Source of the DNA: Halopseudomonas phragmitis
GTDB lineage: Bacteria; Pseudomonadota; Gammaproteobacteria; Pseudomonadales; Pseudomonadaceae
Direction: 5' to 3'
NCBI RefSeq assembly: GCF_002056295.1
Contig: NZ_CP020100.1
Location: forward strand, 1,077,501-1,141,500
Length of the DNA: 64,000 nt
This document shows, in pieces, positions 10,205-55,196 of the stretch. The notes below the pieces were generated by a model. That model was not told where the DNA came from. It ran no database searches and worked only from the letters and a program-made list of their open reading frames with translations. The number at the start of each line of letters is the position of its first letter. Positions within the stretch are counted from its first letter, which is position 1. The translations under genes were made by a program, and so were the position numbers.

Positions 10205-10246
10205 GTGCGGGAACCCTATGCGGCGCGGGGCCTGATGCCCCGTCGG

Positions 10247-10639: not shown

Positions 10640-10791
10640 GTATCACTCGATAAGGTATGTTGTAATTGTTGTCTTCCATCAACCCGTGGAATCAGGCTTG
10701 ACAGGGCAGAAACAGCGCTATGTTAAGGGATTGCGGGGGCCCTCTCAATCTTTGTCGACGGGCTGCGCGGCTTAATGGCGCATACTGGCAG

Positions 10792-10831
10792 CCTTCATAC
10801 AATTGTCATATTCCTTGAATAGGGTTGTCAC
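10792..10831 (+). promoter_or_regulatory. Tandem Pho boxes upstream of pstS
   Basis: Four 7-base units spaced exactly 11 bp apart: CCTTCAT (10792), TTGTCAT (10803), CTTGAAT (10814) and TTGTCAC (10825). The consensus PhoB unit is CTGTCAT. The first pair has the spacer ACAA. The last unit ends 56 bp before the pstS ATG. PhoB, encoded at 25291, should activate here under phosphate starvation. Confidence 0.8.
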
Positions 10832-10887
10832 ACGGCTTCCAGATACTTGGTCGCGTGTTGCCAATACATACTCTCAAGGAGTTATTC

Positions 10888-11862
10888 ATGAAACTGAAGC
10901 AATTGTGCGTCGCCATTTCCTTCGCCGCTGTGGGCGCGATCAGCACTGCCGCTGTAGCTGACATTGATCCGAACCTGCCGAAGTATGAGCGCGCCAGTGG
11001 CGTGTCCGGTAACCTGTCCAGTATCGGTTCCGACACCCTGAACAACCTGATGACTCTGTGGGCTGAAGAGTTCAACAAGTTCTACCCGAACGTTAACGTC
11101 CAGATTCAGGGCGCTGGTTCCTCCACTGCGCCGCCGGCCATCACCGAAGGCACCGCCAACCTGGCGCCGATGAGCCGCGCCATGCGTGACTCTGAAATCC
11201 AGACTTTTGAAGGTCGTCATGGCTATGCGCCCTACGCGCTGCCGGTCGCCGTCGACATGCTGGCTGTTTATGTCAACAAGGACAACCCGATTGAAGGTCT
11301 GAGCCTGCCGCAGGTTGATGCCATCTTCTCCGCTACCCGTCGCTGCGGTTACGAAGCCGACATCACCCGCTGGGGCCAGTTGGGTATGACTGGCGCCTGG
11401 GCTAACCGTGACTTCGCCCTGTACAGCCGCAACGCGGTATCCGGCACCTACGGTTTCTTCAAGGACAACGCCCTGTGCGGCGGTGACTTCAAATCCAGCA
11501 TCAACGAGCAGCCGGGTTCTTCCTCGGTGGTTCAGGGTGTGACTGAGTCGATCAACGGTATCGGCTACTCCGGTATCGGCTATCGCACCTCGGGTGTGCG
11601 CGTCGTTCCGCTGGCTACCGAGGAGGGCGCTGACTTCGTTGAAGCGACTGCCGAGAACGCTGCCAATGGTACTTACCCGCTGGCCCGTTACCTGTACGTC
11701 TACATCAACAAGAACCCGAATCAGGATCTGGACCCGCTGACCCGCGAATTCGTCAAGATGCTCTACACCCAGGAAGGTCAGGGCGTAGTTGATCGTGACG
11801 GTTTCGTGACTGTGCCCAAGTCGGTTGCCGACAAGGTACTGAGCGACCTGAACATCAAGTAA
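10888..11862 (+). CDS. pstS: Phosphate ABC transporter periplasmic binding protein PstS
   Basis: A 324-residue periplasmic protein that binds phosphate for the Pst importer. It has a signal peptide ([21 protein letters not shown]), then the Pst signature [23 protein letters not shown] and [40 protein letters not shown] is another phosphate-contacting block. The start at ATG 10888 follows AAGGA at 10876-10880; the frame is open upstream to 10825 but that part would precede the signal peptide. It is the first gene of pstS-pstC-pstA-pstB-phoU and is followed by its own terminator, so it is probably made in excess over the permease. Confidence 0.96.
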
Positions 11863-38157: not shown

Positions 38158-38826
<669 letters not shown>

Positions 38827-38974
38827 TTATATAGGCACTTGCCTCTAAGGCGGGAATCACTGCGCACAAGAGAGTGTGGTTTGGCCCGGGTGTGGTAGTC
38901 GGAGTGGCTGGTCATATGTGCACTTTGCAGAGCGGAGCTGTTGGCCTTTTGCTACCGGATGATATAAGCGGCAC

Positions 38975-38991
38975 AAACTTTAATAAAGTTT
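38975..38991. promoter_or_regulatory. Perfect palindrome in the algD upstream region
   Basis: AAACTTTA-A-TAAAGTTT is a perfect 8-base inverted repeat with a single central base, about 425 bp upstream of algD. It looks like a binding site for a dimeric regulator. The regulator is unknown. Confidence 0.5.
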
Positions 38992-39348
38992 CGGCAATAA
39001 AAAGCAATGAGTGGAAGTGGCATTTTGATGTGTCTGAGTTAATATTGCAGAAACATTGCGAGGGCGGCGTTATAAAAATGGCGCCATAACTTTTACGCTA
39101 AAACTTGCGGCTCGTTGTTTTGGGTGTGTTTTGCATATAAAGAAGAATGCGCCGAAATAGCCGGCTTGACGGAGTTTTGGCGCCAGCAAAACTTCGGCAA
39201 AAAAAGTTGCCATAGAAAAAAACAATTATTATTACCGCGGTTGCCCCCTTGAAAACCCTCATTCTTCTGCGCATCCTGTGCGCAAGTTGGACACCCAAAG
39301 CTTAGTGCACCTCTTCGAGTGCAGCCCCGCACCGCAAAATAAATCCCA

Positions 39349-39356
39349 CAAGGACG
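39349..39356 (+). promoter_or_regulatory. Candidate RsmA/CsrA site in the algD leader
   Basis: CAAGGACG matches the RsmA consensus CANGGAYG exactly. A second GGA lies at the ribosome-binding site (TGGAGGGA, 39401-39408), close to GGGATATTCCC. Paired GGA sites near the ribosome site are typical of RsmA-repressed mRNAs. RsmA control of algD is reported in Azotobacter and pseudomonads. Confidence 0.4.
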
Positions 39357-39415
39357 TCGGGTTTGGCTTTCGTCTTTTTTTACTCATTGCCAAATAACCA
39401 TGGAGGGATATTCCC

Positions 39416-40726
39416 ATGAATATCAGCATTTTCGGTTTGGGGTATGTTGGTGCAGTCTGTGCTGGCTGCTTGTCATCGCGTGGACATCATGTTGTTGGTG
39501 TTGATGTTTCACAAACCAAGATCGATCTGATCAACCAGGGTAAGTCTCCTATTGTTGAACCGGGCCTGGAAGAGTTGTTGCAGGCCGGATTGCAGTCCGG
39601 ACGTCTGCGCGGCACGACCGATGTCCAGGAAGCGGTACTGAGCACCGATTTGTCTTTTGTCTGCGTCGGTACGCCGAGCAAGCGCAACGGTGACTTGGAC
39701 TTGACCTACATGGAGATCGTCTGCCGGCAAATCGGTGAAGTGCTGCGCGACAAGTCCGATCGTCACACCGTGGTAATCCGCAGCACCGTATTGCCGGGCA
39801 CCGTGCACAATGTGGTGATTCCGGCGCTGGAAGCCACCTCCGGCAAGAAGGCCGGTGAAGACTTCGGGGTGGCAGTGAACCCGGAGTTCTTGCGCGAAAG
39901 TACCGCAATCAAGGATTACGACTTCCCGGCCATGACCGTGATCGGTGAGTACGATCAGCTTTCCGGCGAGCTGCTCGAAGAGCTGTACCGCGATCTGGAT
40001 GCGCCAATTTTCCGCAAGAGCATTCAACTGGCGGAAATGATCAAGTACACCTGTAACGTCTGGCATGCGGCCAAGGTGACCTTCGCCAACGAAATCGGCA
40101 ACATCGCCAAGGCTTGCGGCGTCGATGGCCGCGAGGTCATGGATATCGTGTGCCAGGACCACAAGCTCAATATCTCCCGTTACTACCTGCGCCCGGGGTT
40201 TGCCTTCGGCGGCTCCTGTCTGCCTAAGGACGTGCGTGCGCTGACCTACCGCGCCGGGCAACTGGATGTCGAGCATCCGATGCTGGCTGGGATCATGCCG
40301 AGCAACCGCCATCAGGTCGATCGTGCCTTTGACCTGATCAGCCGCCATGACAAGCGCAAGGTCGGCATGTTGGGGCTGAGCTTCAAGGCCGGCACCGATG
40401 ATCTGCGTGAAAGCCCACTGGTCGAGCTGGCGGAAAAACTGATCGGCAAGGGCTATGACCTGCGCATTTACGATCAGAACGTCGAGTACGCCCGGGTATT
40501 TGGTGCCAACAAGGAATACATCGAATCGAAGATCCCCCATGTGTCGTCGCTGCTGCATACCAGTCTCGAAGACGTGATCGCCCAGTCGGACATTATCGTG
40601 CTCGGCAATGGCGATCCGCGCTTCGGTGAGCTGGTCAAGCAGCCGCCACAGGGCAAGCAGGTCGTTGACCTGATCGGCTTCATGGAGCAGTCGAGCAACG
40701 GTGCTCAGGAAGGGATCTGCTGGTAA
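39416..40726 (+). CDS. algD: GDP-mannose 6-dehydrogenase AlgD
   Basis: A 436-residue enzyme that oxidises GDP-mannose to GDP-mannuronate with two NAD, the committed step for alginate. The Rossmann start is MNISIFGLGYVGAVCAGCL. The catalytic thiol is Cys268 in GGSCLPKD, the same number as in P. aeruginosa. MIKYTCNVWHAAKVTFANEIG and LGLSFKAGTDDLRESP also match. It is the first gene of the operon, preceded by a GGAGGGA ribosome site and a long AT-rich leader, and followed by a 146-bp gap to algA. Confidence 0.97.
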   Translation: MNISIFGLGYVGAVCAGCLSSRGHHVVGVDVSQTKIDLINQGKSPIVEPGLEELLQAGLQSGRLRGTTDVQEAVLSTDLSFVCVGTPSKRNGDLDLTYMEIVCRQIGEVLRDKSDRHTVVIRSTVLPGTVHNVVIPALEATSGKKAGEDFGVAVNPEFLRESTAIKDYDFPAMTVIGEYDQLSGELLEELYRDLDAPIFRKSIQLAEMIKYTCNVWHAAKVTFANEIGNIAKACGVDGREVMDIVCQDHKLNISRYYLRPGFAFGGSCLPKDVRALTYRAGQLDVEHPMLAGIMPSNRHQVDRAFDLISRHDKRKVGMLGLSFKAGTDDLRESPLVELAEKLIGKGYDLRIYDQNVEYARVFGANKEYIESKIPHVSSLLHTSLEDVIAQSDIIVLGNGDPRFGELVKQPPQGKQVVDLIGFMEQSSNGAQEGICW

Positions 40727-40766: not shown

Positions 40767-40872
40767 GGCCCGGGGACGTCGGGCTTTCACTGCCTCGTGC
40801 AGATCAACGTGATCGGCTGTTGTGACAGTTGGGTGAGCCACCTGGTGGTTTCGCATTGACATGGAGAACGAC

Positions 40873-42300
40873 ATGATTCCTCTGATTCTTTCCGGCGGTA
40901 ACGGCACGCGGTTGTGGCCGCTGTCGCGCAAACTGTTTCCCAAGCAATTCCACGCCCTGACCGGCGACCACACGCTGTTCCAGCAAACCCTGCTGCGCCT
41001 GGATCTGCCGGGCGTCGAATCGCCGCTGGTGGTGTGCAACTGCGAGCATCAGTTCATCGTCGAGGAGCAACTCGACAATATCGGCATGCGCGCGCAACAG
41101 GTACTGCTTGAGCCATTTGGCCGCAATACGGCGCCAGCCGTGGCGCTGGCGGCGTTGCAACTGGTCGAGCAGGGACGTGACGAACTGTTGCTGGTATTGC
41201 CGGCCGATCATCTGATCGCCAATACCCAGGCCTTCCATCAGGCCCTGGAGCGGGCCCGACTGGCGGCCGAGCGTGGTGCGCTGGTGTTGTTCGGAGTGCC
41301 GGCTCGGCAACCTGAAACCGGTTATGGCTACATCAAGGCCGGCGGCTCGGGTAGCGGCCCGGTACCGGGGGCGCTGGCGGTCGAGCGGTTCGTCGAGAAG
41401 CCCGATCTGGCCACCGCCCAGAGCTACGTTGAGGACGGCAGCTATTTCTGGAACAGCGGGATGTTCCTGTTCCGTTGCAGCCGTTATCTGGAAGAACTGC
41501 AGCGCCACTCCCCGGATATCTACGACACCTGCCGTCTGGCGCTGGAGCGCAGCCGGCGCGAGGGCGAGAACGTGCATATCGACCGTGAAGTGTTCGAGTG
41601 CTGCCCGGATGACTCGATCGACTACGCGGTGATGGAAAAAACCTCGGCGGCCTGTGTAGTGCCGCTGTCTGCCGGCTGGACCGATGTCGGTTCCTGGACC
41701 GCGTTGTGGGAAGTTCAGGACAAGGACGCGCGCGGCAATGTCGCCCTGGGTGACGTATTGCTGCAGGAGAGCAGCAACAACTATGTGCACGCCACCAACA
41801 AACTGGTGACGCTGATCGGACTGGACGATCTGGTGGTGGTTGAGACCAGGGATGCAGTGATGATCGCCCACAAGGACAAGGCCCAGCAGATCAAGGATGT
41901 CGTCAACCGCCTGGCTGCTGACGGGCGCGACGAGGTTCACAGCCATGTCCAGGTCTTCCGGCCCTGGGGCAATTACGACTCGGTTGATCTGGGTGAGCGC
42001 TTCCAGGTCAAGCGCATCACCGTCCAGCCTGGCGCCCGGCTGTCTCTGCAGATGCATCACCATCGGGCCGAGCACTGGGTGGTGGTCTCCGGTACGGCGC
42101 AGGTCACCTGTGACGACAAGACCTTCCTGCTGACCGAGAACCAGTCGACCTATATCCCGGTCGCATCGGTCCATCGTCTGGCCAACCCCGGCAAGATTCC
42201 GCTGGAAATCATCGAAGTTCAGTCCGGCAGTTACCTGGGCGAGGACGATATCGAGCGGCTGGAAGATGTCTATGGCCGCACTGCGGCCCTGGCCCGTTAA
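40873..42300 (+). CDS. algA: Mannose-1-phosphate guanylyltransferase / mannose-6-phosphate isomerase AlgA
   Basis: A 475-residue bifunctional enzyme. It isomerises fructose-6-phosphate to mannose-6-phosphate and, after AlgC, makes GDP-mannose. The nucleotidyltransferase domain begins IPLILSGGNGTRLWPLSRKLFPKQF; FVEKPDLATAQSYV and WNSGMFLF follow. The C-terminal isomerase barrel has RPWGNYDSVDLGERFQVKRI and LSLQMHHHRAEHWVVVSGTA. ATG 40873 matches the family start and follows GGAG; an ATG at 40861 is in frame. It is second in this operon, whereas it is last in P. aeruginosa. WbpW/PslB paralogues are possible alternatives by sequence, but the context favours AlgA. Confidence 0.92.
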   Translation: MIPLILSGGNGTRLWPLSRKLFPKQFHALTGDHTLFQQTLLRLDLPGVESPLVVCNCEHQFIVEEQLDNIGMRAQQVLLEPFGRNTAPAVALAALQLVEQGRDELLLVLPADHLIANTQAFHQALERARLAAERGALVLFGVPARQPETGYGYIKAGGSGSGPVPGALAVERFVEKPDLATAQSYVEDGSYFWNSGMFLFRCSRYLEELQRHSPDIYDTCRLALERSRREGENVHIDREVFECCPDDSIDYAVMEKTSAACVVPLSAGWTDVGSWTALWEVQDKDARGNVALGDVLLQESSNNYVHATNKLVTLIGLDDLVVVETRDAVMIAHKDKAQQIKDVVNRLAADGRDEVHSHVQVFRPWGNYDSVDLGERFQVKRITVQPGARLSLQMHHHRAEHWVVVSGTAQVTCDDKTFLLTENQSTYIPVASVHRLANPGKIPLEIIEVQSGSYLGEDDIERLEDVYGRTAALAR

Positions 42301-42311
42301 TCGAGGACAAC

Positions 42312-43859
42312 ATGCAAGGATCCGAAGCAAATCAGGCGCCGGTGCGCGAGTTTCTGGATACCGAGTTCCAGCGCCCAGGGTTACGCAGTCTGTGTGGCTG
42401 GGCCTGCCTGTTCGCGCTGATCGCCCTGGCGTCGAACATGGTTGACCCCAGCTACCTGGACCCGGCCCACCACAAGTTCATCTTCATCATCGGGTTGTTG
42501 GGGATCTGGCGTTACAGCAACGCCATTACCCACTACCTGCGCGGGATGTATTTCCTGCACTGGCGCTTCCCGCGTATTCGCCGGGCGGTGGAGAAGATGG
42601 GGGACGATGCCCTGCCATCGCATATGTACATGGTGGTGACCAGCTTTCGGATTCCTGGCGAGACCACCTATAAGGTCTATCGCTCGGTGTTCGAGGAGTT
42701 GCAGCGTATGCCGGTGGCCAGCACGGTGATTGCTTCGATCGTCGAGAAGGCCGATGAAAACTTCATCAAGCAGATCATGCGCGATGTGGTACGTGAGCGG
42801 TCGGATATCCAACTGGTGATCGTTCGCGCCCGGGGGACCGGCAAACGCGACGGCCTGGCCCATGCGTTTCGGGCCCTGTCTCGGCGGATGCCGGTACAGG
42901 GCGCCGTGGTCGGTGTGGTCGATGGCGACACCATGATGCTGCCGGGCTGTGTCGAACGGGCGGTCAAGCTGTTTGCCTATCTGCCCAGTGTCGGCGGTCT
43001 GACCACCAACGAGTTCTGCCAGGTTGAAGGCGGCAAGCTGATGAAGGAGTGGCACTCGATGCGCTTCGTTCAGCGCCATATCAATATGTGCTCGATGGCG
43101 CTGTCCAAGCGGGTCCTGACCATGACCGGGCGACTGTCGTTCTTCCGCGCCGAGGTGATGATCGACCCCGAGTTCATTCGCGATGTTGAAGCCGATTTTC
43201 TCGAGCACTGGCGCCTGGGCAAGTTCCAGTTCCTGACCGGGGATGACAAGTCCTCCTGGTTCAGTCTGATGCGCGCCGGCTGGGACACCTTCTACGTACC
43301 CGACAGCCACACCCTGACCGTCGAGCATCCACCGGACCGCAACTTCTTCCGGGCGACCCGGCAGTTGATGTATCGCTGGTATGGCAACTCGTTGCGGCAG
43401 AACTTTCGCGCCACCCGGGAACTCGGCCTGCGCCGGCTCGGGCCGTTCGCCAGCTATGTGTTGTACGACCAGCGGGTGGCGATGTGGACCTGCCTGGTGG
43501 GGCTGACCGGTGCGCTGGTTGCCGGCCTGGTGTTCGGCATCCAGTACCTTCTGATCTATCTGTTCTGGATCCTGTTGTCGCGCAGCCTGGTGTGTTTGTT
43601 GTTCTTTCTGACCCGGCACCCGGTGGATCCGTTGTACCCCTTCGTTCTGTATTACAACCAGATCGTCGGTTCGCTGATGAAGGTGTACTCGATGTTCCAT
43701 ATGGATCAACAAAGCTGGACCCGACAGAAAACCACGCTGAAAGGCAGCAACAACCTTGATGCGGCACTGAACCGCTGGACCTCGAAAGGGATGCTGATGG
43801 CATCGATAGCCATCTTTTTCGGCGTCATTACGGTTCTTCTGGACCTCTCACAACTCTGA
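42312..43859 (+). CDS. alg8: Mannuronan synthase catalytic subunit Alg8
   Basis: A 515-residue inner-membrane family 2 glycosyltransferase that polymerises GDP-mannuronate. Membrane helices lie at residues ~25-65 and in the C-terminal third (LVGLTGALVAGLVFGIQYLLIYLFWILL). The cytosolic domain has VVGVVDGDTMMLPGC with the Asp-x-Asp, FLTGDDKSSWF and a RQLMYRWYGNSLRQN element near the acceptor site. It works with Alg44. ATG 42312 lies 11 bp after algA with GAGGACA. Confidence 0.95.
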   Translation: MQGSEANQAPVREFLDTEFQRPGLRSLCGWACLFALIALASNMVDPSYLDPAHHKFIFIIGLLGIWRYSNAITHYLRGMYFLHWRFPRIRRAVEKMGDDALPSHMYMVVTSFRIPGETTYKVYRSVFEELQRMPVASTVIASIVEKADENFIKQIMRDVVRERSDIQLVIVRARGTGKRDGLAHAFRALSRRMPVQGAVVGVVDGDTMMLPGCVERAVKLFAYLPSVGGLTTNEFCQVEGGKLMKEWHSMRFVQRHINMCSMALSKRVLTMTGRLSFFRAEVMIDPEFIRDVEADFLEHWRLGKFQFLTGDDKSSWFSLMRAGWDTFYVPDSHTLTVEHPPDRNFFRATRQLMYRWYGNSLRQNFRATRELGLRRLGPFASYVLYDQRVAMWTCLVGLTGALVAGLVFGIQYLLIYLFWILLSRSLVCLLFFLTRHPVDPLYPFVLYYNQIVGSLMKVYSMFHMDQQSWTRQKTTLKGSNNLDAALNRWTSKGMLMASIAIFFGVITVLLDLSQL

Positions 43860-43877: not shown

Positions 43878-45041
43878 ATGAGCACTTCGGTTCTTTCTGA
43901 CCAGGTCGTCCATGAAGCGATCGACGAGCGTCAGCACATTCGCACCAGAATTCCGGCCAAGGCTCGGTTGACCGGCGGCAGTGGTTCACCCATCACCTGC
44001 GATGTTCAGGACATCTCACTGGGCGGCGTCGGTCTGGTGTGTGCCGAGCCACTGAAAATCGGCAGCCTGTACGCAGCGGTCATTCGCCTGGGCATCAACG
44101 GCGTTGATCTCGACCTCAAGGTCAAGATCAAGGTGGTCAAGCAGGATGGCGATATCGTCGGTGCCCAGTTTGTCGATATGGATCCGAAAAAGGCCGACAT
44201 TCTGCGCTACATCATCTCGTCCTACATGTCGGGTGAAATTGCCGATATCAATGGCCTGTTCAACGTGATGCAGCGCGAGAACTACATCAAGGAACGCAAG
44301 CAGAAATACGACACCCGGCGTACCCCCCTGCAGCGCCTGCGAGCTGGTCTGGGAACCCTGGTGTTTCTATTGATCGGTCTGTTGGCGCTGACCTATGTGG
44401 TGCACAAGGCCTATCTGCTGTTTTTCCGGATTCCGGCGGCCCAGGCGCTGGTCACGGCTAACGCCTATCGCATCATCATGCCGGAGAACGGCAATGTCAG
44501 CTTCCTGATCCCGCCAAGCCTCACAGAAGTCAGTGCCGGTCAGCCGGTCGCCAGCGTTTCGACCCAACTCAACACCAGCCTGAGTTCGCCGGCCGATATC
44601 GCGGCGATGATGGATCTGGCCCCGGGTGACGTCGAAGCCCTGCTGGGCCGCGCCACCATCGAAACGGTGATCGCCAGCCCCTGCGACTGCACCCTGTTTT
44701 ACCCCGGCAGCCAGCTTGACGGCTTCGGTTACAAGGGCGAGCCGCTGGTGCATCTGCTGCCCAAGGACCAGCCCCTCTATGTCAAGGCCAGCGTGCCGTT
44801 CGACAAACTTGAGAAGCTGCGTCGTACCCGCAACGTCAGCCTGACCGTTTATGGCGCTGACGCAGCCGTGGCTGGCACCATCGTTAACGCTTCGGTGAAC
44901 GAGCAGTCGCAGATGCTGGTGCTCGATATTCTGCCAGAAGCGCCGCTGGATCTGGGCAGCTACCAGAAACCGGTCTGGGTTGATTTCACTCTGGGGCTAC
45001 CCGGCATGCCGGGGCTCGAGATCATGGACGAGATGCTCTGA
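43878..45041 (+). CDS. alg44: Alginate co-polymerase and c-di-GMP receptor Alg44
   Basis: A 387-residue protein. The N-terminal cytoplasmic PilZ domain keeps the c-di-GMP motifs: RQHIR (Arg18 and Arg22) and DISLGGVG (Asp45, Ser47, Gly50). A single transmembrane helix lies near residues 160-182 (LGTLVFLLIGLLALTYVVHKAYLLFF). The periplasmic part resembles membrane-fusion proteins (RIIMPENGNVSFLIPP). Binding of c-di-GMP activates Alg8. AGGAT precedes ATG 43878. Confidence 0.95.
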   Translation: MSTSVLSDQVVHEAIDERQHIRTRIPAKARLTGGSGSPITCDVQDISLGGVGLVCAEPLKIGSLYAAVIRLGINGVDLDLKVKIKVVKQDGDIVGAQFVDMDPKKADILRYIISSYMSGEIADINGLFNVMQRENYIKERKQKYDTRRTPLQRLRAGLGTLVFLLIGLLALTYVVHKAYLLFFRIPAAQALVTANAYRIIMPENGNVSFLIPPSLTEVSAGQPVASVSTQLNTSLSSPADIAAMMDLAPGDVEALLGRATIETVIASPCDCTLFYPGSQLDGFGYKGEPLVHLLPKDQPLYVKASVPFDKLEKLRRTRNVSLTVYGADAAVAGTIVNASVNEQSQMLVLDILPEAPLDLGSYQKPVWVDFTLGLPGMPGLEIMDEML

Positions 45042-45051
45042 GGGAGCTGGT

Positions 45052-46536
45052 ATGCGCGCACCTTTCCTGATACTGAGCCTGCCCTTGCTGGCGGTGTTGC
45101 TGGCCAGCGAGGTGGAGGCCAGGAACTTCGAGCAGGTCCGGTATGCGCTTTACCTGGACCCCCATGCCGAGGTCGTCCCAGACCTTGAGCAACTGGCCAA
45201 ACTGGGCGATCACCGGGCTCAGCGCCTACTCGGCGATATTCTCGCCGAGCGTGATCCGGCCGGCGCCAGCCGGGTGCTGGAGCTGTACCGCCAGGCCTTT
45301 GCCGGTGGTCGCGGCGAGATCAGTGCCCTGGCTGCCATGGCCCGTTATCTGGGCCAGCGGCCACGCTTGCGGCAACAGCACCGTGCCGAGGTGGCCGAAG
45401 GTTTGACCCGTTATCGGCATGACCGCGACCCGGTCAATGTGCTGGCCACCCTGGAGGTGTTCAATGCCTATCCAGAGTTGTTTGAGTCGGCGGCGGTTGA
45501 GCACCTGATCAGCCGCTATGAGCGGGCCTGCATCGAGAACTGCCTGACCCTGCTGTACCGCGGCCGACTGGCTGAACACCAAGGTAACCATGAGCTGGCC
45601 GAGAGCCTGTATCGCCAGGCGGCGCTTCAGGACCCCCGCGCCATTGAGGCTTTGTACCGGGTCATGGGTAAAGACGTGGCCCTCAAGTTCAGGGGCTTTG
45701 CTCGTGATGCCAGCCCACGTATCGCCAGTCTGCCGATTGAGGTCGTGCACCGTATTGGCCTGCATCTGGCCAATACCAGTAACGCTCTGGCCAATGAGTG
45801 GGTGTATACCCGCCAGAGTGTGATCGGTGAGGTCGAAATTCCCGATGCCGAGCAACTGGCCGCAGCCGAAGCGGCCCAGCGGGCTCAGGACGCGATGATC
45901 GATGAACTCGACCGCGAGATTCTCTATTGGCTGGATCACGCGGTGGCACGGGGTTACACCCCGGCCATGTCGACCAAGGCCAGTTTCATGATGGCCGGCA
46001 ACAACCGCTTCAGCAGTGAAGCGGTTGAGCACCTGCTGCGTCAGCTGGAGAGCACCGAAACCGCACGGAGCAGTGCCGGCGAGCATTATCAGGACCGGGT
46101 TGGGCCGCAGCGGATCAAGGCGCTGTGGGCCAGCTATTACATGGTCAACTGGCTATCGATGAACCCCACCAAGGCCCACGGGCTGATTCGTGAACTGATC
46201 GAAGAAGGCTACGACGATGCTCGCCTGATGGAGGGTGACCTGTATAGCCGAGGTTTGCTCGATGAGCCGGACCAAGCCCGGGCGCTGGGCATTTATGAAC
46301 AAATGGCCGAGCGCGGCTGGGCCAGTGCCCACCTGCGTATTGCCCGTCTCAATACCTATGGTCGCGCCATGCGGGGCGACTTTGTGACGGCCTACAGTCA
46401 TGCCCGGGCGGCCCTCGAACTGGGGGATCTGCGTGCCGAGGGTCTGGTCAATTTTTTGGAGCAACGTTTGCCGGCAACGCTGTTGGAGCAGGGTAATGCC
46501 ATGACCGAGCAAATGCTGCGCAACTCTGTTTTGTGA
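45052..46536 (+). CDS. algK: AlgK-like periplasmic TPR/Sel1 protein lacking a lipobox
   Basis: A 494-residue helical-repeat protein, the counterpart of AlgK, which scaffolds the export complex and helps AlgE. The N-terminus (FLILSLPLLAVLLASEVEA) is a cleavable signal peptide with a likely cut after Ala23. There is no cysteine near it, so the lipid anchor of P. aeruginosa AlgK is missing; the first Cys falls in the ERACIENC segment far downstream. Sel1-like repeats are visible, e.g. GDLYSRGLLDEPDQARALGIYEQMAERGWASAHLRIARL. Identity rests on position between alg44 and algE and on the repeats. The ATG at 45052 has AGGGAG upstream. Confidence 0.8.
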   Translation: MRAPFLILSLPLLAVLLASEVEARNFEQVRYALYLDPHAEVVPDLEQLAKLGDHRAQRLLGDILAERDPAGASRVLELYRQAFAGGRGEISALAAMARYLGQRPRLRQQHRAEVAEGLTRYRHDRDPVNVLATLEVFNAYPELFESAAVEHLISRYERACIENCLTLLYRGRLAEHQGNHELAESLYRQAALQDPRAIEALYRVMGKDVALKFRGFARDASPRIASLPIEVVHRIGLHLANTSNALANEWVYTRQSVIGEVEIPDAEQLAAAEAAQRAQDAMIDELDREILYWLDHAVARGYTPAMSTKASFMMAGNNRFSSEAVEHLLRQLESTETARSSAGEHYQDRVGPQRIKALWASYYMVNWLSMNPTKAHGLIRELIEEGYDDARLMEGDLYSRGLLDEPDQARALGIYEQMAERGWASAHLRIARLNTYGRAMRGDFVTAYSHARAALELGDLRAEGLVNFLEQRLPATLLEQGNAMTEQMLRNSVL

Positions 46537-46544
46537 GGACACGG

Positions 46545-47933
46545 ATGAGAACGCGACAATGCCATGCCATGGGTGGTCTGCTGCTGGCCCTGCTGTACCC
46601 GACTGCGATGCTGTCCGCGCAAGAAGGAGAAACTCAGCTCGGCCAAATGCCAGAGACCTCGCTGATCACTCACAAGCTGTCAGTGCGCGGCGGCTATGGT
46701 CCGGAAGAGACTCGCCTGGGCGAGGATCGCAAGGAGTTCATCAGCATCCGCTATGAGCCCACCTTGCACTGGTTCAGTCCCGATATCCAGTGGCCGCGCT
46801 GGGAGGCGGTTGCCAAGGCCTGGTTCAACTACGACAGCCAGCCCAATGCGATCATCCAGGATGAAGGCAACCTGCAGGTCAGCCGCAAGCGGGACAAAAC
46901 CTGGGCCGAGATGCGCGAGTTCTACGTACGCCGCAACCTGCTGGGCAATGACCCCAGGTTCTCGTTGACGGTTGGCCGCCAGCGTTTTGCCGAGCGTTTC
47001 GGGGTCTGGTGGGACGACAGCCTGGAAGCAATCCGCTTCGACTATCGCGACAGTCAGGCCGAAGGCTTCATTGCGGTCGCCGAGCGCTTCTATTACTACA
47101 ATACCGACTTCAATACCCTCGAGCCCGAAGACAAGGATATTCGCTATCTGATGGGCGATTATCGCCGGCTGTGGCGGGCCCAGCAGTGGGCCGGGGTGCG
47201 TACCCTGTATGAACACGACTACTCGGACAAGGACCTGCGCGACCGCGACGACTTCAAAGGCTGGCGGTTGGGCGCCTACCTGAATGGTCAGTTCACCGAC
47301 CTGGCCTGGCTCAGCGACTATCACGCCGAGCTGATCGGCATGCGCGGTGACTTGCGTACGGTCGGCAGCTTTGGCCAATTCGACACCGGCCGCATCGACG
47401 GCTGGGCTGCGTTGCTGGATGCCGGCAAACGCTTCGATGAGCACCCCTGGCGCCCGCGCCTGGGGCTGACGCTGGCTCTGACCGACAAGCCGGATGACGA
47501 TGGCCGCGACGGCTTCTACCTCAACCGGGTGCAATCGGACCGGCGTACCGATCCGATGAGCTACAGCAACCGACTGGTGAGCAATTTCGTCACCGTCAAC
47601 CTGACCAACCTGCAAATGGTGGGGGTGGGAGTGGACACCGAACCGGCACCGGGTACCGTGGTGGGGCTGCGGGTCAGCGATCTGCGGTTGCGTAATTCGG
47701 AAGGTCGCCTGCCGGTACGGGTAGTCAACGAGCCGGGGATTCGCAACACCGACTCGCGGGCGCTGGGCCAGGTGGTTGACCTCAACTACTACTGGCGCAT
47801 GTATCCCATGGCGGTGCGTGAACGGCGGCTTAACCTGAATACGCTGGTCAGTGCCAGCTACTTCAAGGCTGGCAGCGCGTTGAACACTGGCGACGACTTC
47901 CAGGTCACCCTGGGTTTGACCCTTTTCTATTGA
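46545..47933 (+). CDS. algE: Alginate outer-membrane porin AlgE
   Basis: A 462-residue beta-barrel protein, close to the ~490 of P. aeruginosa AlgE. It has a signal peptide (MGGLLLALLYPTAMLSA) and the sequence is a series of amphipathic strands. A conserved core reads REFYVRRNLLGNDPRFSLTVGRQRFAERFGVWWDDSLEAIRFDY. It ends in an aromatic residue (LGLTLFY) as outer-membrane proteins do. AlgE is the exit pore for the polymer. ATG 46545 has GAGGA upstream; a GTG at 46533 overlapping the algK stop is an alternative. Confidence 0.93.
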   Translation: MRTRQCHAMGGLLLALLYPTAMLSAQEGETQLGQMPETSLITHKLSVRGGYGPEETRLGEDRKEFISIRYEPTLHWFSPDIQWPRWEAVAKAWFNYDSQPNAIIQDEGNLQVSRKRDKTWAEMREFYVRRNLLGNDPRFSLTVGRQRFAERFGVWWDDSLEAIRFDYRDSQAEGFIAVAERFYYYNTDFNTLEPEDKDIRYLMGDYRRLWRAQQWAGVRTLYEHDYSDKDLRDRDDFKGWRLGAYLNGQFTDLAWLSDYHAELIGMRGDLRTVGSFGQFDTGRIDGWAALLDAGKRFDEHPWRPRLGLTLALTDKPDDDGRDGFYLNRVQSDRRTDPMSYSNRLVSNFVTVNLTNLQMVGVGVDTEPAPGTVVGLRVSDLRLRNSEGRLPVRVVNEPGIRNTDSRALGQVVDLNYYWRMYPMAVRERRLNLNTLVSASYFKAGSALNTGDDFQVTLGLTLFY

Positions 47934-47951: not shown

Positions 47952-49379
47952 ATGATCTTCGCCTCCAACGTCTTTCTGTTTCTGTTCCTGCCGGCATTCT
48001 TGCTGTGCTATTACCTGGCCGGCTTTCGCTGGCGCTCGCTGGTAATCGTGCTGGGCAGTTACCTGTTCTACGCGTGGTGGCGTCCGGACTTCCTGTTCCT
48101 GTTCATTGGTATCACCTATTGGAACTACTGGTTCGGCTTACGGATCAAGGCCAATCTGGAGGCGGGTAACAAGGAGCGAGCATTCCGCCTGCTGACCATC
48201 GGGGTGGTGGGAGACCTGGCCACCCTGGGTTATTTCAAGTACGCCAACTTTGGCGTCGAGGTCATTGCCGGAGCGTTGGCGCCGCTGGGGATCGATACCT
48301 TCACCCTGGAGCACATTATCCTGCCGCTGGGCATTTCCTTCTATGTGTTCCAGGCGATCAGCTATATCGTTGACATCTATCGACGCAAGGCCGAGCCAAC
48401 CGATCGTTTCATCGACTTTGCCGCTTTTATCTCGCTATTTCCGCAACTGATCGCTGGGCCGATCCTGCGCTACAACCAGATTGAACAGCAACTGCGATCA
48501 CGCACTCATTCGATGGAGCTGTTCTCGCTGGGCGCCAGCCGTTTCATGCTCGGCTTCATCAAGAAAGTACTGATTGCCGACTCGCTGGCACCGATGAACG
48601 TGCTGTTTCTCGGTGAGTCAACGCCGCAGATGGCCGACGCCTGGTTCGGCCTGCTGATTTCGATCATGCAGCTGTATTTCGACTTCTCCGGCTACAGTGA
48701 CATGGCCATCGGTCTGGGCATGATGATGGGCTTCAGATTCCAGGAGAACTTCAACCAGCCCTATCTGGCCCAGAGCATCACCGAGTTCTGGCAGCGCTGG
48801 CACATGACCCTGGCCGACTTCCTGCGTGACTATGTCTATATGCCGCTGGTGCGTCGGCGCATTGCCGGGCCAATGCTGGGGCTGGTGATCACCATGATGC
48901 TGTCGGGGTTCTGGCATGGCGCCAGCTTCTCGTTCATCTGCTGGGGCTTGTTCTTCGGGATAGGCATGGTCCTCGAACGGCGTTTTGACCTGGCTACCAA
49001 GGTCACCACGCCGTACCGGTTCTGGCGCAACATGCGCACCTTCGTCCTGCTCAACCTGAGCATGCCGCTGTTCTACACCGGTGATTTGCGCCACAGCCTG
49101 GAGATTTACGCTGGTTTGTTCGGCTTCAACGGAGTTGGCAGCCTCAACGGCTATTTGTATGGCACTTCGCTGATGACCCTGAGCTTCACCGCCGTTGGCC
49201 TGCTGTGGATCTCGGTCGCCGGGCGGATCAACCTGCGTTATTACGCCAGCGACGGTCAGGCCTATTTCATGCAGCACGTCGGTGGTGTCCAGGCGCTGTT
49301 GCTGTGGGCCGGGTTCCTGCTGGCGCTGAGCCGGTTGGCAGCCAACTCCTTCTCACCCTTCCTGTATTTCCAGTTCTAG
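47952..49379 (+). CDS. algI: Alginate O-acetyltransferase membrane subunit AlgI
   Basis: A 475-residue MBOAT protein with many membrane helices that brings acetyl groups across the inner membrane. The essential His is at exactly residue 322 (SGFWHGASFSFICWG). MIFASNVFLFLFLPAFLLCYYL, YFDFSGYSDMAIGLG and ITEFWQRWHMTLADFLRDYVYMPL are signatures. It is shorter than the ~520-residue P. aeruginosa form, mainly at the C-terminus. Here algI follows algE directly, whereas algG, algX and algL intervene in P. aeruginosa. Confidence 0.94.
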   Translation: MIFASNVFLFLFLPAFLLCYYLAGFRWRSLVIVLGSYLFYAWWRPDFLFLFIGITYWNYWFGLRIKANLEAGNKERAFRLLTIGVVGDLATLGYFKYANFGVEVIAGALAPLGIDTFTLEHIILPLGISFYVFQAISYIVDIYRRKAEPTDRFIDFAAFISLFPQLIAGPILRYNQIEQQLRSRTHSMELFSLGASRFMLGFIKKVLIADSLAPMNVLFLGESTPQMADAWFGLLISIMQLYFDFSGYSDMAIGLGMMMGFRFQENFNQPYLAQSITEFWQRWHMTLADFLRDYVYMPLVRRRIAGPMLGLVITMMLSGFWHGASFSFICWGLFFGIGMVLERRFDLATKVTTPYRFWRNMRTFVLLNLSMPLFYTGDLRHSLEIYAGLFGFNGVGSLNGYLYGTSLMTLSFTAVGLLWISVAGRINLRYYASDGQAYFMQHVGGVQALLLWAGFLLALSRLAANSFSPFLYFQF

Positions 49380-49388: not shown

Positions 49389-50495
49389 ATGAACCTGCCC
49401 GTCATGCGTAGCGCCAGCAAGCTCAACGGCATCGCCTTCTGCATCATGCTGGGCGCCATGTTCCTGTATTCGCTGCCGACGTTGTACGGGTTTGCCCGGA
49501 GTCAGGAAAACCCCGGTTCGTTGTTTTTCGACGGCAAGCTGGTCAGGCATTTCGAGCAGTTCTACGACAAGCAGCTGTTCCTGCGCGACCCTTCGATCAA
49601 GCTATGGGCCAATGCGCAGCAACTGATCTTCGGTGAGGCCACCAGCGGCGCTGTGCTCGGTCGCGATGGCTGGCTGTTCACCAGCCAGGAGTACCGGGTT
49701 CCGAACAATCTGGAGGCGAGCATTGCCCGCCAGGTCAGCCACATTACCCAGGCCCGAGACCAATTGCAGGCCGAAGGTATGCGCCTGGTGTTGCTGCCTG
49801 TGCCGATGAAGCTTGAAGTCTATGCCGACTATCGCCTGCGTCAGCCGGCCGAAACGGTCGAAACCCTGTATCAGCGGTTGCAGGCTGAACTGCAGGCTCA
49901 GGCGGTCGAGGTAGTCGACTTACGCGACGGTTTCCGCGCGGCGGCAAGTAGCCAGGAGCTGTTTCTCAGTAACGATACCCACTGGAGTCCTGCAGGTGCA
50001 CGTCTGGCCGCCGAGCTGCTGGTTGCCCGGCATCCGGAGCTGCGGGGGCCGACCCGATTCGTGACCGAGCAGATCGGTAGCAAACAGCACAGCGGGGATC
50101 TGCAGCGTTACCTGCAGTTTGATCAGCGCTTGCGTCCGGATTACTTCGAGCCGGTCGAGCTGGCGCTGTATGAAACCCGCCGTCAGGAGCAGCAGGTCGA
50201 TGCCCACAGCCTGTTCGGCGATATTGGCCTGAGCACTGCTGTGGTTGGCACCAGCTACACCCAGGTCGCTGAATGGAACTTCATTGGCGCGCTGAAACAG
50301 GCTCTTGGACAGGATGTGATGAGTGTGGCGGTTGAGGCGCACGGCCCATTTCATGCTATGGACAACTTCCTGAAGCTGGAGCCCGAGCAGCGCCATGGTA
50401 TTGAAACCGTGATATGGGAGTTCCCGGTGCGCACGCTGCTGGCCCAGCAAAACACGCGCCGGGCCTCACTCGACCCTTTTGAACGACAGTTTTAG
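49389..50495 (+). CDS. algJ: Alginate O-acetylation protein AlgJ
   Basis: A 368-residue SGNH-like acetyltransferase anchored by an N-terminal helix (GIAFCIMLGAMFLYSLPTLYG). Catalytic residues are in place: Asp196 and His198 in NDTHWSPAG, Ser289 in VVGTSYTQ. It passes acetyl groups from AlgI toward AlgX or the polymer. ATG 49389 follows AGGAGGATGTC, just 9 bp after algI. Confidence 0.94.
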   Translation: MNLPVMRSASKLNGIAFCIMLGAMFLYSLPTLYGFARSQENPGSLFFDGKLVRHFEQFYDKQLFLRDPSIKLWANAQQLIFGEATSGAVLGRDGWLFTSQEYRVPNNLEASIARQVSHITQARDQLQAEGMRLVLLPVPMKLEVYADYRLRQPAETVETLYQRLQAELQAQAVEVVDLRDGFRAAASSQELFLSNDTHWSPAGARLAAELLVARHPELRGPTRFVTEQIGSKQHSGDLQRYLQFDQRLRPDYFEPVELALYETRRQEQQVDAHSLFGDIGLSTAVVGTSYTQVAEWNFIGALKQALGQDVMSVAVEAHGPFHAMDNFLKLEPEQRHGIETVIWEFPVRTLLAQQNTRRASLDPFERQF

Positions 50496-50512: not shown

Positions 50513-51157
50513 ATGAATGTGCGCATCTACCGCTGGTTGTGTCTGCCCTGCCTGCTGTTGCTGGCCACCCTGGCCCAGGCTCAGGATGGCAACGCCGACC
50601 TGTATGACGGGGTGGCACCAGCCGATTCGGCCTTTGTCCGGGTATTCAACCTGGGCAGCACCAGTATCGGTTTCGGCTTGAGCGGCAAGCAGCGTGAACA
50701 GCGCATCGCTGCCGGGCAGTTGGGTAGCTACCGCTTCACCTCGCCGGGCCCTGGGCGGCTGACCATTGAGGGCAACAGTCTGGAGGCCCAGTTCGAGGCC
50801 AGCAGCGCCACCACCGTGCTCTACAAGGACGGCCAGTTCGTGCTGATTGCCGATAAGTTCGTTGATGACCCGCGCAAGGCCCAGGTCGGATTCTATAACC
50901 TGACCTCGCAACCTGTGGCGCTCAAGACCCGCGATGGCAAGCACACCGTGGTTGAGGCGATCGGGACTAATGAAACCGGGCTGCGGGCGGTCAATGAGAT
51001 CAAGATCGGCTTTTCCGCCTACGCTGGCGAGCAGGAACTGGCCCAGTTTGACGAAGTGTTTCTCAAGCTGGGCAACACCTACAGCTTCATGGTGGTCGAG
51101 GAAGCGGGCGGGCTGAGAACCCTGTCCATGTCCAGCACCATCGACCCGACCGAATAA
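50513..51157 (+). CDS. algF: Alginate O-acetylation protein AlgF
   Basis: A 214-residue periplasmic protein with a signal peptide (LCLPCLLLLATLAQA). The mature part is beta-rich, with ADSAFVRVFNLGSTSIGFGLSGKQ and VLYKDGQFVLIADKFVDDPRKAQVGFYNLT. AlgF is needed for acetylation and bridges AlgJ and AlgX. GGAGAAG precedes ATG 50513. It sits between algJ and algX. Confidence 0.92.
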   Translation: MNVRIYRWLCLPCLLLLATLAQAQDGNADLYDGVAPADSAFVRVFNLGSTSIGFGLSGKQREQRIAAGQLGSYRFTSPGPGRLTIEGNSLEAQFEASSATTVLYKDGQFVLIADKFVDDPRKAQVGFYNLTSQPVALKTRDGKHTVVEAIGTNETGLRAVNEIKIGFSAYAGEQELAQFDEVFLKLGNTYSFMVVEEAGGLRTLSMSSTIDPTE

Positions 51158-51188
51158 CGTTGTGCAACCGACCAGGAATGAGCCAAGG

Positions 51189-52595
51189 ATGAAACCTGCG
51201 TACCCCTCAACTCTCGGCTTGCTGATGGCCCTGTGGTTCACTGTGCCGGCGGCCCAGGCCCAGGCTGGCCCCAATCAACCCTGCCTCGGCCCCGAGTGCC
51301 TGATCTGTCCGGCGCTCAGCGATCCGCAACAGTACGCCGAGGGCGGGATGAAGATCATGCGCTTCATGGCTCCGGGCAGGGGAAGCTGGCTATTTCGCTC
51401 GGATGTGGATCTGACCACCGATTTCGGCATGCCGGCGCACATGGAGCCGGAGCTGGCCCGGCTGATTTCTACCTTCAACCGCCAGGGCACCGAGGTGGCG
51501 ATCGTGGTTCAGCCAACGCGTGGCCTGATGCATCGTGACAAAGTGCGCCCGGACTTTGCCTACGGTTTCGACTACGCCGAAGGGGTAGCCAATCTGCGTC
51601 ATTTTCTCACCCAGCTGAGAAACGCCGGGGCCATCGTGCCGGACGTCATGAATCTGGTGGAAAACCCGCCGCAGGAGGAATACTTCTTCCGCCGCGATAC
51701 CCACTGGACTCCGGCCGGGGCCAAGGCCACCGCGCAACTGGTGGCGCAGGAAGTGCGTCGTCAGCCGGTCTATGCCGGGTTGACCAAGAGCACCTATCGC
51801 ACCGAGCCCAGCGTGATCATTCCCAAGGATGGCGCCCACAACATGGCCTTCAGCCGCCTGTGCGGCAATGATTTTGGCTATCAGTATGTGCAGAACTTCC
51901 AGACCGTGCCGGAAGTTGATGAAGTCAGTGCGTTGTTCGACGATATTCCCGAGCCGGAGGTGACGCTGGTCGGTACCAGTAACTCGGCAGCCCGTGACGA
52001 AGACACCAAGCAGTACAACTTTGATGGTTATCTGAAGGAGTACCTGTCGGTCAACCTGATGAACTTCTCCTTGCAGGGGGGTGGTCAGGATGGTGCCTTG
52101 ATGGAGTACCTGCTGTCACCCAGTTACTCAACGAACAATCCGCCGAAACTGATCATCTGGGAACTGCCGGCCAACTACAAGCTGGCCAGCGAGGTCATGT
52201 ACCGGCAACTGGTGCCCGCAGCTGAAGGAGGCTGCGCAGCGCGCACCACGGTGCTGAGCGGACGTGCCGAACGTTCGGGCTATCGGGAGAACGACCGGAT
52301 CGAGGTGCTGAGCAACAGTGGTGCCCAGCGTCAGGCGTTGACTGGGGCCGACGGTGTACTGGATATCAAGATGTCCGACCGCGATTTGCGCAACTTCTAC
52401 GTCATCGTCTATTACGACAATGGCAGTCGTGACAAGGTCTGGATTCGGCGTCCGGGAATTGTCAGTGGCGGTCAGTACTACCTGGAGCTGAGCAAGGCTA
52501 CCGAGTTCCGCAACGCCAACCTGCTGTCGGTGTTCATCGAGCCGACCCAGGCGTCCGACAAGCCGATTGATCTGGAGGTCAGCCTGTGCCGTTAG
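51189..52595 (+). CDS. algX: Alginate acetyltransferase and export protein AlgX
   Basis: A 468-residue periplasmic protein. It has a signal peptide ending AAQAQA, an SGNH-like domain and a C-terminal carbohydrate-binding module. Catalytic residues are Asp170 and His172 in RRDTHWTPAG and Ser264 in VGTSNS. Paired cysteines lie at CLGPECLIC. AlgX acetylates the polymer directly and belongs to the secretion complex. ATG 51189 precedes the signal peptide; the frame is open to 51162. The stop overlaps the GTG start of algL. Confidence 0.93.
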   Translation: MKPAYPSTLGLLMALWFTVPAAQAQAGPNQPCLGPECLICPALSDPQQYAEGGMKIMRFMAPGRGSWLFRSDVDLTTDFGMPAHMEPELARLISTFNRQGTEVAIVVQPTRGLMHRDKVRPDFAYGFDYAEGVANLRHFLTQLRNAGAIVPDVMNLVENPPQEEYFFRRDTHWTPAGAKATAQLVAQEVRRQPVYAGLTKSTYRTEPSVIIPKDGAHNMAFSRLCGNDFGYQYVQNFQTVPEVDEVSALFDDIPEPEVTLVGTSNSAARDEDTKQYNFDGYLKEYLSVNLMNFSLQGGGQDGALMEYLLSPSYSTNNPPKLIIWELPANYKLASEVMYRQLVPAAEGGCAARTTVLSGRAERSGYRENDRIEVLSNSGAQRQALTGADGVLDIKMSDRDLRNFYVIVYYDNGSRDKVWIRRPGIVSGGQYYLELSKATEFRNANLLSVFIEPTQASDKPIDLEVSLCR

Positions 52596-53704
52596 TCCGA
52601 CTTAAGTCTTCCGTCATCGCCCTGCTGATGGTGCTGGCCAGCCTCTGGGCGGCGAGTGCCAGTGCCGCCACCAGTATGTGGCCGCCACGGGCCACCAGTC
52701 AGTCGGCGATGATCGGTGACTACCGTGCCCTGAGCTGCCCTCACTCACCGCCGCCAGCCTATACCGGGCACCTGCGGGTTGACAGCAAGTACGACCAGAG
52801 CGAGGCAAGCAAGACCACGCTGGTGCCGCTGCCCCAGGAGTCTGAGCGCATTCGTCAGCAGATCACCGAGTATCATCGGGGCTTGCAGGAGATCATCACC
52901 CGCTATGAGCGGGCCCGCAATGAGCAGGAGGTCAATCTGAGCCTGGCATGTCTGCATCAATGGCTGGAGGCCTGGGCTCAGCCGGGTGCCATGCTCAGCC
53001 GCGAGGTCAGCGGCACTGGCCGTGCCGTGCGCAAATGGTCACTGGCTGCCCTGGGTTCCGGGCTGCTCAAGGTCCGGGCCCTGAGTAACGGTGGTTATCA
53101 GCTGTCGACTGCCCAGCGCAGCTGGCTGGAGCGCCTGTCCAACGCCGTGATCAGCGATTACAGCCCGCGCCAGACCCTCGACTTTACCTGGTTCAACAAC
53201 CACGACTATTGGGCCGCCTGGGCTGTCAGCAGCACCGGTATGCTGCTGGACCGCAATGCCCATATCGACTGGGCTGCAAAAACCCTGCAACTGGCCTTCG
53301 AGCAGATGCAGCCCGGTCAGGCCGGAGACTACGTGCAGTTGCCGCTGGAAACCGCCCGTGGTCGGCTGGCGGTCGACTATACCCACTATGCCCTGGTGCC
53401 GCTGGTACTGCTGGCCGAAAGCATGCAAGCCAACGGTCGCAGTCTGAGTACGGATCAGCAACGCAAGCTTGGCCAGTTGGCCAACTTCGCCGTACGTGGC
53501 GTGCTGGAACCGGCCAACCTGCCTGAACTGGAAGCCGGCCAGGAACGCCCACCGAACCACAAGATGGTCTGGCTGATCCCGTTCCTCAAGCAGCAACCCG
53601 GCCATATCCTGGCTCGGCAGTTGTATGGTCAGGCCGGTAGCGAGCTGGGTTACTACGGCCAGGTTGGCGGCAACATCCGCTTCTTCTATCCGAATATCGA
53701 CTGA
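52586..53704 (+). CDS. algL: Alginate lyase AlgL
   Basis: A 372-residue polysaccharide lyase of family 5 (alpha/alpha barrel) that degrades stray polymer in the periplasm. It has a signal peptide (ALLMVLASLWAASASA). Active-site elements are seen: SKYDQSEASK (Lys68), FNNHDYW (Asn205, His206) and RGRLAVDYTHYAL with Arg and Tyr. Family members usually read NNHSYW; here Asp replaces Ser. The GTG at 52586 overlaps the algX stop, so translation is coupled. Confidence 0.93.
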   Translation: MPLVRLKSSVIALLMVLASLWAASASAATSMWPPRATSQSAMIGDYRALSCPHSPPPAYTGHLRVDSKYDQSEASKTTLVPLPQESERIRQQITEYHRGLQEIITRYERARNEQEVNLSLACLHQWLEAWAQPGAMLSREVSGTGRAVRKWSLAALGSGLLKVRALSNGGYQLSTAQRSWLERLSNAVISDYSPRQTLDFTWFNNHDYWAAWAVSSTGMLLDRNAHIDWAAKTLQLAFEQMQPGQAGDYVQLPLETARGRLAVDYTHYALVPLVLLAESMQANGRSLSTDQQRKLGQLANFAVRGVLEPANLPELEAGQERPPNHKMVWLIPFLKQQPGHILARQLYGQAGSELGYYGQVGGNIRFFYPNID

Positions 53705-53720: not shown

Positions 53721-55196
53721 ATGTCTTTGTCGTCATTCAAGCGTAGTGCTTTGGGCCTGTTCGGGGGCCTGGCGCTGGCGCTCGGCAGCGGTGCCTTGCA
53801 GGCGGACAGTCGGTTACCGCTGGTGGTGCTCGATAGCGTAGACCAGCAAGATCAGCTCAGTGAGCAGCGCGCAAGGCTTGAGGCCGCCACTGCAGTGCCG
53901 GAGTTGGCGTTTCGGGCGCCGGCCGGGCGCGCCGAAGTCAGCCTGTTGACCATGTACTCGGCCCAGCAGGGCAGTTGGCCGTTCGAGCCCTTTGTGCACA
54001 ATGGGTTGTTCCGGGCCATTGCCGGCTACCAGAATCAGCATCCTCGGGCGGTGGTGATCCAGGGGGGCAGCATCAGCCTGCAGCAGCTCCATGCCCAGCT
54101 CAACAACGAACGGATTCTCAGTCGGCATGAGGGCGGCTACCTGCTGCACTATCCGCTGATGATCGACCCGGACGCGGCTCTGCTGATCGAAGGCACCCAA
54201 CTGCATCTGCACAGCTATTCCGGCACGGCCTTGATCAACCGCGGATTGTTGAGCCTCAGGCAGGCCAGCCTGATCGGTTACAGCGACGGCCGGCCTCATG
54301 CCACTGATAGGCCCTACCGGCCGTTTCTGATGAACTGGGCCGGCAGCCGCCTGCGTATTGAAGACTCGCAACTTGAGCGTCTGGGCTACAACGAGCACCT
54401 GTCGCGCGGGGTGACCAGCGCACGCAGTACCCAGCAGGCCGCCAGCGTGGCTCCTGTGCAGATGCTGATCAGCGGCAGCCGTTTTGAGGACATGTCGGTC
54501 GGCCTGGACCTGACCCAGACCCTGGCCAGAGTGACTGGCAATCATTTCAGCGATATGCAGCAATATGCTCTGGATGCCAGTGACAGTCGCCTGTTGATCA
54601 AAGGCAACCGGATTGAGGACGTACGCAATATCAGTGCGATCCGAGTCAGTGGGCGCAGTCAGGGCCGGCTGGAGAAAAACCGGATTTTCCGCGCCAGCAA
54701 AAGCGCCATTGAGCTCAACGCGCTGGACGGCAACCTGATCGTGCGTGACAACCAGATCGGTGCCTCCGCCGGCTATGGCCTGCTGCTGCGGGATATGACC
54801 CCTGCCACCGGCCTGCTGATCGAAGACAACCTGATCGGCAACAGCCGGCTGAGTGCGATCGACGGCGCCGGTCTGCACCAGGCCAGCATCATCGGCAACC
54901 GGATCATCGGCACGCCCGAATACGCTATCAGTATCCGCAACAGTGAGGCGGGGAGTGGGCCGCTGCGCCTGACCGGCAACCATCTGGAGCGGGTCGGCAA
55001 GGCCATGATTCGGGTACAGGGCATGCACAACCTGGTGCTGGGCGCCAACAACTATCGGGCCAATCCGGTGCAACAGAATCTGTTGATTGGTGACCTGCTA
55101 CCGTTCCAGGCCCCGCTGCTGGACATGACCCTGCGCCAGGGTCGGCTGGTCGAACTGGAGCTGGAGCAGGTCAGCCTGCTGCCCGCCGAAGGCTGA
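53721..55196 (+). CDS. algG: AlgG-like mannuronan C5-epimerase homologue with altered catalytic motif
   Basis: A 491-residue right-handed beta-helix protein with signal peptide (LGLFGGLALALGSGALQA). Repeated coils of the NRI/GN type run from about residue 245 to 460 (e.g. GSRFEDMSVGLDLTQTLARVTGNHFSDMQQYAL). AlgG converts mannuronate to guluronate and shields the chain from AlgL. Its catalytic motif is D-P-H-D, with the His as base. At the matching place (QYALDASDSRLLIKGN) this protein reads D285-A-S-D288, so the His is missing. It is ~50 residues shorter than P. aeruginosa AlgG. It may serve as a scaffold only. It is last in the operon rather than sixth. Confidence 0.78.
   Translation: MSLSSFKRSALGLFGGLALALGSGALQADSRLPLVVLDSVDQQDQLSEQRARLEAATAVPELAFRAPAGRAEVSLLTMYSAQQGSWPFEPFVHNGLFRAIAGYQNQHPRAVVIQGGSISLQQLHAQLNNERILSRHEGGYLLHYPLMIDPDAALLIEGTQLHLHSYSGTALINRGLLSLRQASLIGYSDGRPHATDRPYRPFLMNWAGSRLRIEDSQLERLGYNEHLSRGVTSARSTQQAASVAPVQMLISGSRFEDMSVGLDLTQTLARVTGNHFSDMQQYALDASDSRLLIKGNRIEDVRNISAIRVSGRSQGRLEKNRIFRASKSAIELNALDGNLIVRDNQIGASAGYGLLLRDMTPATGLLIEDNLIGNSRLSAIDGAGLHQASIIGNRIIGTPEYAISIRNSEAGSGPLRLTGNHLERVGKAMIRVQGMHNLVLGANNYRANPVQQNLLIGDLLPFQAPLLDMTLRQGRLVELELEQVSLLPAEG

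Follow-up and report, generated by a model that had tools for sequence, protein, structure and literature searches.

EpmG, an AlgG-like family without the catalytic histidine, in alginate-type clusters of Halopseudomonas phragmitis and other bacteria

The epmG gene and its catalytic-motif site

In the 64,000-nucleotide stretch of Halopseudomonas phragmitis analyzed here (contig NZ_CP020100.1, positions 1,077,501 to 1,141,500; hereafter the window) we found an alginate-type cluster with the gene order algD, A, 8, 44, K, E, I, J, F, X, L, G (Table 1). The G gene, hereafter epmG, encodes a relative of the mannuronan C5-epimerase AlgG in which Ser287 stands in the place of the catalytic His. This loss is common to nearly all members of a family of proteins encoded in a separate type of cluster, named epm, and is not the decay of one gene.

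The codons GAT GCC AGT GAC encode D285-A-S-D288, which lies opposite the D-P-H-D motif of P. syringae AlgG (PDB 4nk6; E 3.6e-14). The same placement was obtained with MAFFT, with hhalign (E 1.2e-35) and by comparing a family profile with PDB sequences (E 1.1e-28). According to excerpts of a 2015 review (PMC4444821; all papers given by PMC number are cited from excerpts), the His of DPHD is the probable proton abstractor of AlgG, Tyr314 holds a water and an Arg does the job of calcium in other enzymes. The window protein has the right-handed beta-helix fold of AlgG and retains the Tyr of the classical site as Y282. The charge-neutralising Arg was not found in it, the counterpart of R345 being S310, G311 or a gap depending on the alignment. 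The alignments disagree on the R345 column and on the register of the coils after it, and the status of this Arg in the relatives is alignment-dependent as well. These data confirmed the absence of the catalytic His proposed by the first-pass annotation. With the NCBIfam equivalog NF038177 the protein scored 72.8 bits, below the cut-off of 700.

A sequencing error or a pseudogene was ruled out by the open frame, by the absence of the His in 72 of 73 relatives and by a low ratio of nonsynonymous to synonymous substitution rates (dN/dS). Against a 97% relative, this ratio was 0.081 for the algG-like gene (algL, 0.063; algX, 0.070), and against the more distant L036 it was 0.233 (algL, 0.243; algX, 0.223). 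Synonymous distance to L037 was saturated.

A family of AlgG relatives without the catalytic histidine

Relatives were found in 6 of 58 genomes, five of them of the window's genus (its own genome counted) and one carrying a classical AlgG elsewhere in the order; a search of the order matched 24 of 390 drawn genomes, classical AlgG included. No relative appeared at 1e-20 among 368 other drawn genomes of the class, a sample that misses rare carriers, since a Shewanella carrier (L096) was recovered by a scan of named genomes. The latter, which used two patterns taken from elsewhere than the catalytic region, yielded 67 loci, mostly from Pseudomonas but also from Marinobacterium, Gilvimarinus, Marinobacter and Shewanella. 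Once duplicates had been removed (L001, L002, L003, L005, L007, L012 and L023), these loci, the window protein and L004, L010, L011, L013 and L014 made up a set of 73 members. L015, L016 and L017 were kept apart from it as too divergent. Seventeen rows reached by the family profile served as the classical AlgG set.

The His column held H in 17/17 classical AlgG and in only 1/73 members of the EpmG family, which presented R (26), Q (13), S (11), G (10), A (4), N (2), L (2) and one each of Y, K, H, E and I. Its variability was at the 95th percentile among 47 sequences non-redundant at 90%, in which D285 was invariant. The second Asp of the motif also varied (D in 42, N in 24 and other residues in 7 of the 73), and the complete DPHD was present in none of 76 family proteins compared with all 17 classical ones. 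In a tree of 49 rows a single branch (100/100) separated 32 His-less proteins from the 17 classical AlgG, although this tree is unrooted and the program warned of long branches meeting. The first-pass annotation had described one AlgG that had lost its His; its interpretation was largely right but too narrow, because EpmG is a conserved family in an already described cluster type.

The three proteins kept apart, from one genus of another family, are divergent AlgG-like sequences that lack the first Asp and have G, Q and Q (L015, L016 and L017, respectively) in the His column. L015 adjoins an algA-like gene and L017 adjoins algL-like and phosphomannomutase-like genes, all named by eye; these neighbourhoods possibly represent a third cluster type. 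The match of L016 was flagged with one internal TGA.

Besides this loss, the family has residues of its own. The complete set of D285, R308, K327 and E331 was present in 71/76 family members, the distant L094, L095 and L096 among them, and in 0/17 classical AlgG; it was missing from five divergent members. The R308 position is Ile in all 17 classical proteins. As D285, R308 and E331 lie on predicted strands and are spaced by 23 residues, that is, one coil, they would be expected to line up next to the former active site. After R308, the registers given by MAFFT and by hhalign relative to classical AlgG are one coil apart; since the opposing residues are either Leu/Val or Ser/Thr, the set is family-specific in either register. 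This conserved set suggests a rebuilding of the groove rather than simple decay, and its residues may serve in chain binding, in fold support or in a new site. A GSWPFEP motif precedes the beta-helix; one of the two scan patterns consisted of part of this motif, which biases its frequency, and it was found in 4 of the 9 members obtained independently of that scan. Among the Pfam models, no PL1 or PL6 lyase signature was detected in 45 members, whose only matches at E 0.01 were Beta_helix, NosD, DUF1565 and Mesothelin.

The alginate-type cluster and its comparison with known systems

The features of the cluster are listed in Table 1. The order 44-K-E-I-J-F-X-L-G was exactly kept in 57 of the 67 scanned loci; the remaining 10 were shorter, had extra neighbours or had their open reading frames (ORFs) listed in another order, and algD-A-8 falls outside most fetched loci. 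The residues that we take to be catalytic in AlgI and, besides its His, in AlgL, as well as those presumed to form the PilZ motif of Alg44, were examined in alignment columns together with residues described as catalytic in the literature excerpts available (Asp and His of AlgJ, Ser of AlgX, His of AlgL). The window counted, key residues were kept in 68/68 AlgX, 68/68 AlgL, 66/66 AlgI and 65 or 66/66 Alg44; in AlgJ, Asp and His were kept in 66/68 (two gaps) and Ser in 68/68. These columns supersede exact-string counts (AlgX DTHWT 2/67 and GTSNS 34/67; AlgJ DTHW 64/67 and GTS 56/67; AlgL [YH]THYA 10/68). Judged by these residues, AlgG is the only one of the cluster enzymes tested that would have lost its site.

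Table 1. Features of the epm-type cluster and of the epmG gene (positions in the window).
Feature	Position	Strand	Remark
algD-like	39416..40726	+	nucleotide-sugar dehydrogenase
Cluster feature	40861..42300	+	between algD-like and alg8-like genes
alg8-like	42312..43859	+	glycosyltransferase; named by family and position
alg44-like	43878..45041	+	copolymerase, PilZ domain; PilZ motif residues kept
algK-like	45052..46536	+	repeat protein, very divergent; start is the ATG after alg44
algE-like	46533..47933	+	alginate exporter
algI-like	47952..49379	+	MBOAT acyltransferase; His322 retained
algJ-like	49389..50495	+	SGNH acetyltransferase; D/H/S retained
algF-like	50513..51157	+	
algX-like	51162..52595	+	acetyltransferase; D/H/S retained
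algL-like	52586..53704	+	alginate lyase; Asn/His/Tyr retained
epmG (algG-like)	53721..55196	+	491 aa; AlgG relative, catalytic His absent
GSWPFEP	53970..53990	+	residues 84-90, ahead of the beta-helix
Y282	54564..54566	+	faces the catalytic-water Tyr of AlgG; Tyr in 70/73
D285-A-S-D288	54573..54584	+	site of D-P-H-D; Ser287 replaces the catalytic His
R308-V309-S310	54642..54650	+	S310 in the R345 column (MAFFT)
K327 to E331	54699..54713	+	Lys and Glu specific to the family, one helix coil past R308

Several further features of these clusters were observed. The window AlgK-like protein scored 52.3 bits against a cut-off of 700 and, of the nine cluster genes compared with L036 and L037, it was the least identical. 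A promoter of the classical AlgU type ahead of algD was discarded, as the window gave 6 loose matches compared with a chance mean of 8.7, none of them upstream of this gene. The approximately 0.6 kb preceding algD (38800-39415) has no AlgU-type promoter match, and the regulation of the cluster may differ from that of classical alginate. Two copies of EpmG occur in P. mangrovi TC11 (L089 and L093); at L089 the G gene of one cluster is followed by D-A-8-44-K, and the two clusters may be in tandem.

With regard to known systems, two P. alkylphenolica loci (L069 and L072) share 44-K-E-I-J-F-X-L-G with the window and encode members of the EpmG family, in which the motif reads DVRD. The window cluster is thus of the epm type, responsible in P. 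alkylphenolia for an alginate-like exopolysaccharide (PMC5890197); the identification with the published epm cluster is based on species and gene order. Operon II of E. guguanensis G3 (algDA-alg8-alg44-Un-Un-algIJFXLG; PMC13296017) has the order of the window, with two unknowns at the places of algK and algE. In the excerpts of that paper, none of which mentions the motif, its algG is labelled C5 epimerase, the operon is rated less likely functional and double operons are reported only in E. guguanensis strains, whereas here classical AlgG was also found in 52 of 65 carriers belonging to many species. Two alginate clusters are also described in P. alcaliphila 34 (PMC3587930). Classical AlgG (PDB 4nk6) and EpmG share their fold, have the same Tyr and the same first Asp at the site and are both encoded in an alginate export cluster. 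However, the window EpmG differs from it in lacking the DPHD His and an Arg in the R345 column, in having R308, K327, E331 and GSWPFEP, and in its gene order, the classical one being algD-alg8-alg44-algKEGXLIJFA (PMC13296017). Laboratory algG mutants with an altered AlgG make an M-only polymer, mannuronan (PMC4444821); the EpmG form is instead natural and conserved.

Concerning natural producers of mannuronan, none had been identified according to the excerpts of the 2015 review (PMC4444821). Nevertheless, PMC5890197, where no epm was found in P. corrugata, cites the description of polymannuronic acid from this species in 1996, which counts against full novelty. The title of Lim et al. (2014) presents P. 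alkylphenolia as a platform for poly-beta-D-mannuronates, but this title alone cannot tie the polymer to epm because L069 and L072 also carry a classical AlgG. Neither a natural loss of AlgG catalysis in the EpmG family nor a statement that EpmG lacks the catalytic site was found in the literature searched, which did not cover Lee et al. from 2014. In that work on epm a substituted polymannuronic acid was reportedly proposed and epmG is said to have been treated as a modifying enzyme.

Predicted role of EpmG and its alternatives

We consider it likely that EpmG is an AlgG-like protein without C5-epimerase catalysis that guides and shields the polymer, the product being acetylated polymannuronate. 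EpmG would have retained the AlgG fold and its place in the export cluster after catalysis was lost, and would bind, guide and shield nascent polymannuronate on its periplasmic way from Alg8/Alg44 to AlgK/AlgE. Such a scaffold role would be that of the AlgG protein independent of its activity; according to the title of Gimmestad et al. (2003), the AlgG protein, and not its activity, is required for polymer formation. As no base would be available for the C5 proton, mannuronate (M) residues would stay unconverted to guluronate (G), the chain would still be acetylated by AlgI/J/F/X and AlgL would still clear stray chains. The cluster would then probably export acetylated polymannuronate and not mixed alginate, and this would be the sole alginate of the window genome. 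The inability to epimerise predicted by the first-pass annotation is well supported by inference, as the catalytic His is missing, the genome gave no further AlgG match and the helix holds no invariant His that could substitute for it. A displaced catalytic His was ruled out: among the 73 proteins, His is the majority residue only at positions 106, 107, 124 and 266. The sole invariant one, H107, precedes the helix coils and is also present in 3/17 classical AlgG, and at position 266 the window EpmG has Gln.

Several observations weigh against this reading. First of all, the charged residues conserved in the family could make up a new active site, EpmG being still an enzyme in which D285, R308, K327 and E331 carry out other chemistry on polymannuronate, such as that of a Lys/Arg-based lyase or epimerase or the handling of substituents. 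Beta-helix lyases with Arg or Lys bases exist, and both the wide conservation of the four residues and their one-coil spacing favor this possibility. However, the same residues might form a ladder of salt bridges with a structural function or might bind a carboxylate, the Pfam matches include no lyase model, the set is incomplete in the five divergent members and the register after R308 is uncertain by one coil, so we regard such an enzyme as unlikely. A related proposal, in which these residues and GSWPFEP form a new site with an undescribed action on polymannuronate, leading to a distinct, G-free and differently modified polymer in dozens of Pseudomonas species, is likewise rather unlikely.

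Secondly, the classical AlgG found above the family cut-off in 52 of the 65 carrier genomes searched might act on the epm polymer, so that G would be introduced in trans even with an inactive EpmG. For these counts L061 was excluded and L089 and L093 were taken as one genome; at least L036 and L090 are metagenome-assembled genomes. No classical AlgG reached the cut-off in the window genome or in the other 13/65, although several of the latter are drafts or metagenome-assembled genomes of unstated completeness. EpmG is the only AlgG relative in P. neustonica and Marinobacterium lutimaris too. A second epimerase in the window genome was rejected, as its single AlgG-like match is epmG itself. Its two other Beta_helix matches both lie in a 3850-aa ORF (L008 / G000:C1:554987-563797), perhaps a large surface protein, and DPHD was not found in the 1173-codon stretch of it that was read. 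Epimerization in trans seems quite improbable to us.

Finally, one member, L088 of P. guryensis (9833-11395), has a His at the site (DLHD), with Ala in the MAFFT R345 column and no AlgG above the cut-off in its genome. A weak epimerase activity based on a different base could be argued from the classical Asp285 (73/73) and Tyr (70/73), from an Arg in the R345 column of 47/73 (in one alignment, MAFFT) and from the His at position 266, about one coil before the motif, in 49/73 (Glu in 17/17 classical AlgG and Gln in the window EpmG), but it is very improbable given the twelve different residues at the His position and the variable second Asp.

If EpmG acts as a scaffold for acetylated polymannuronate, its family would allow natural mannuronan makers to be predicted from genomes, these being the window genome and the 13 of 65 carriers without AlgG above the cut-off. 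Epimerase labels on genes of this family are probably wrong. The conservation of EpmG suggests that the structural job of AlgG can persist in evolution after catalysis is lost, and EpmG clusters would be a pointer to a source of acetylated polymannuronate.
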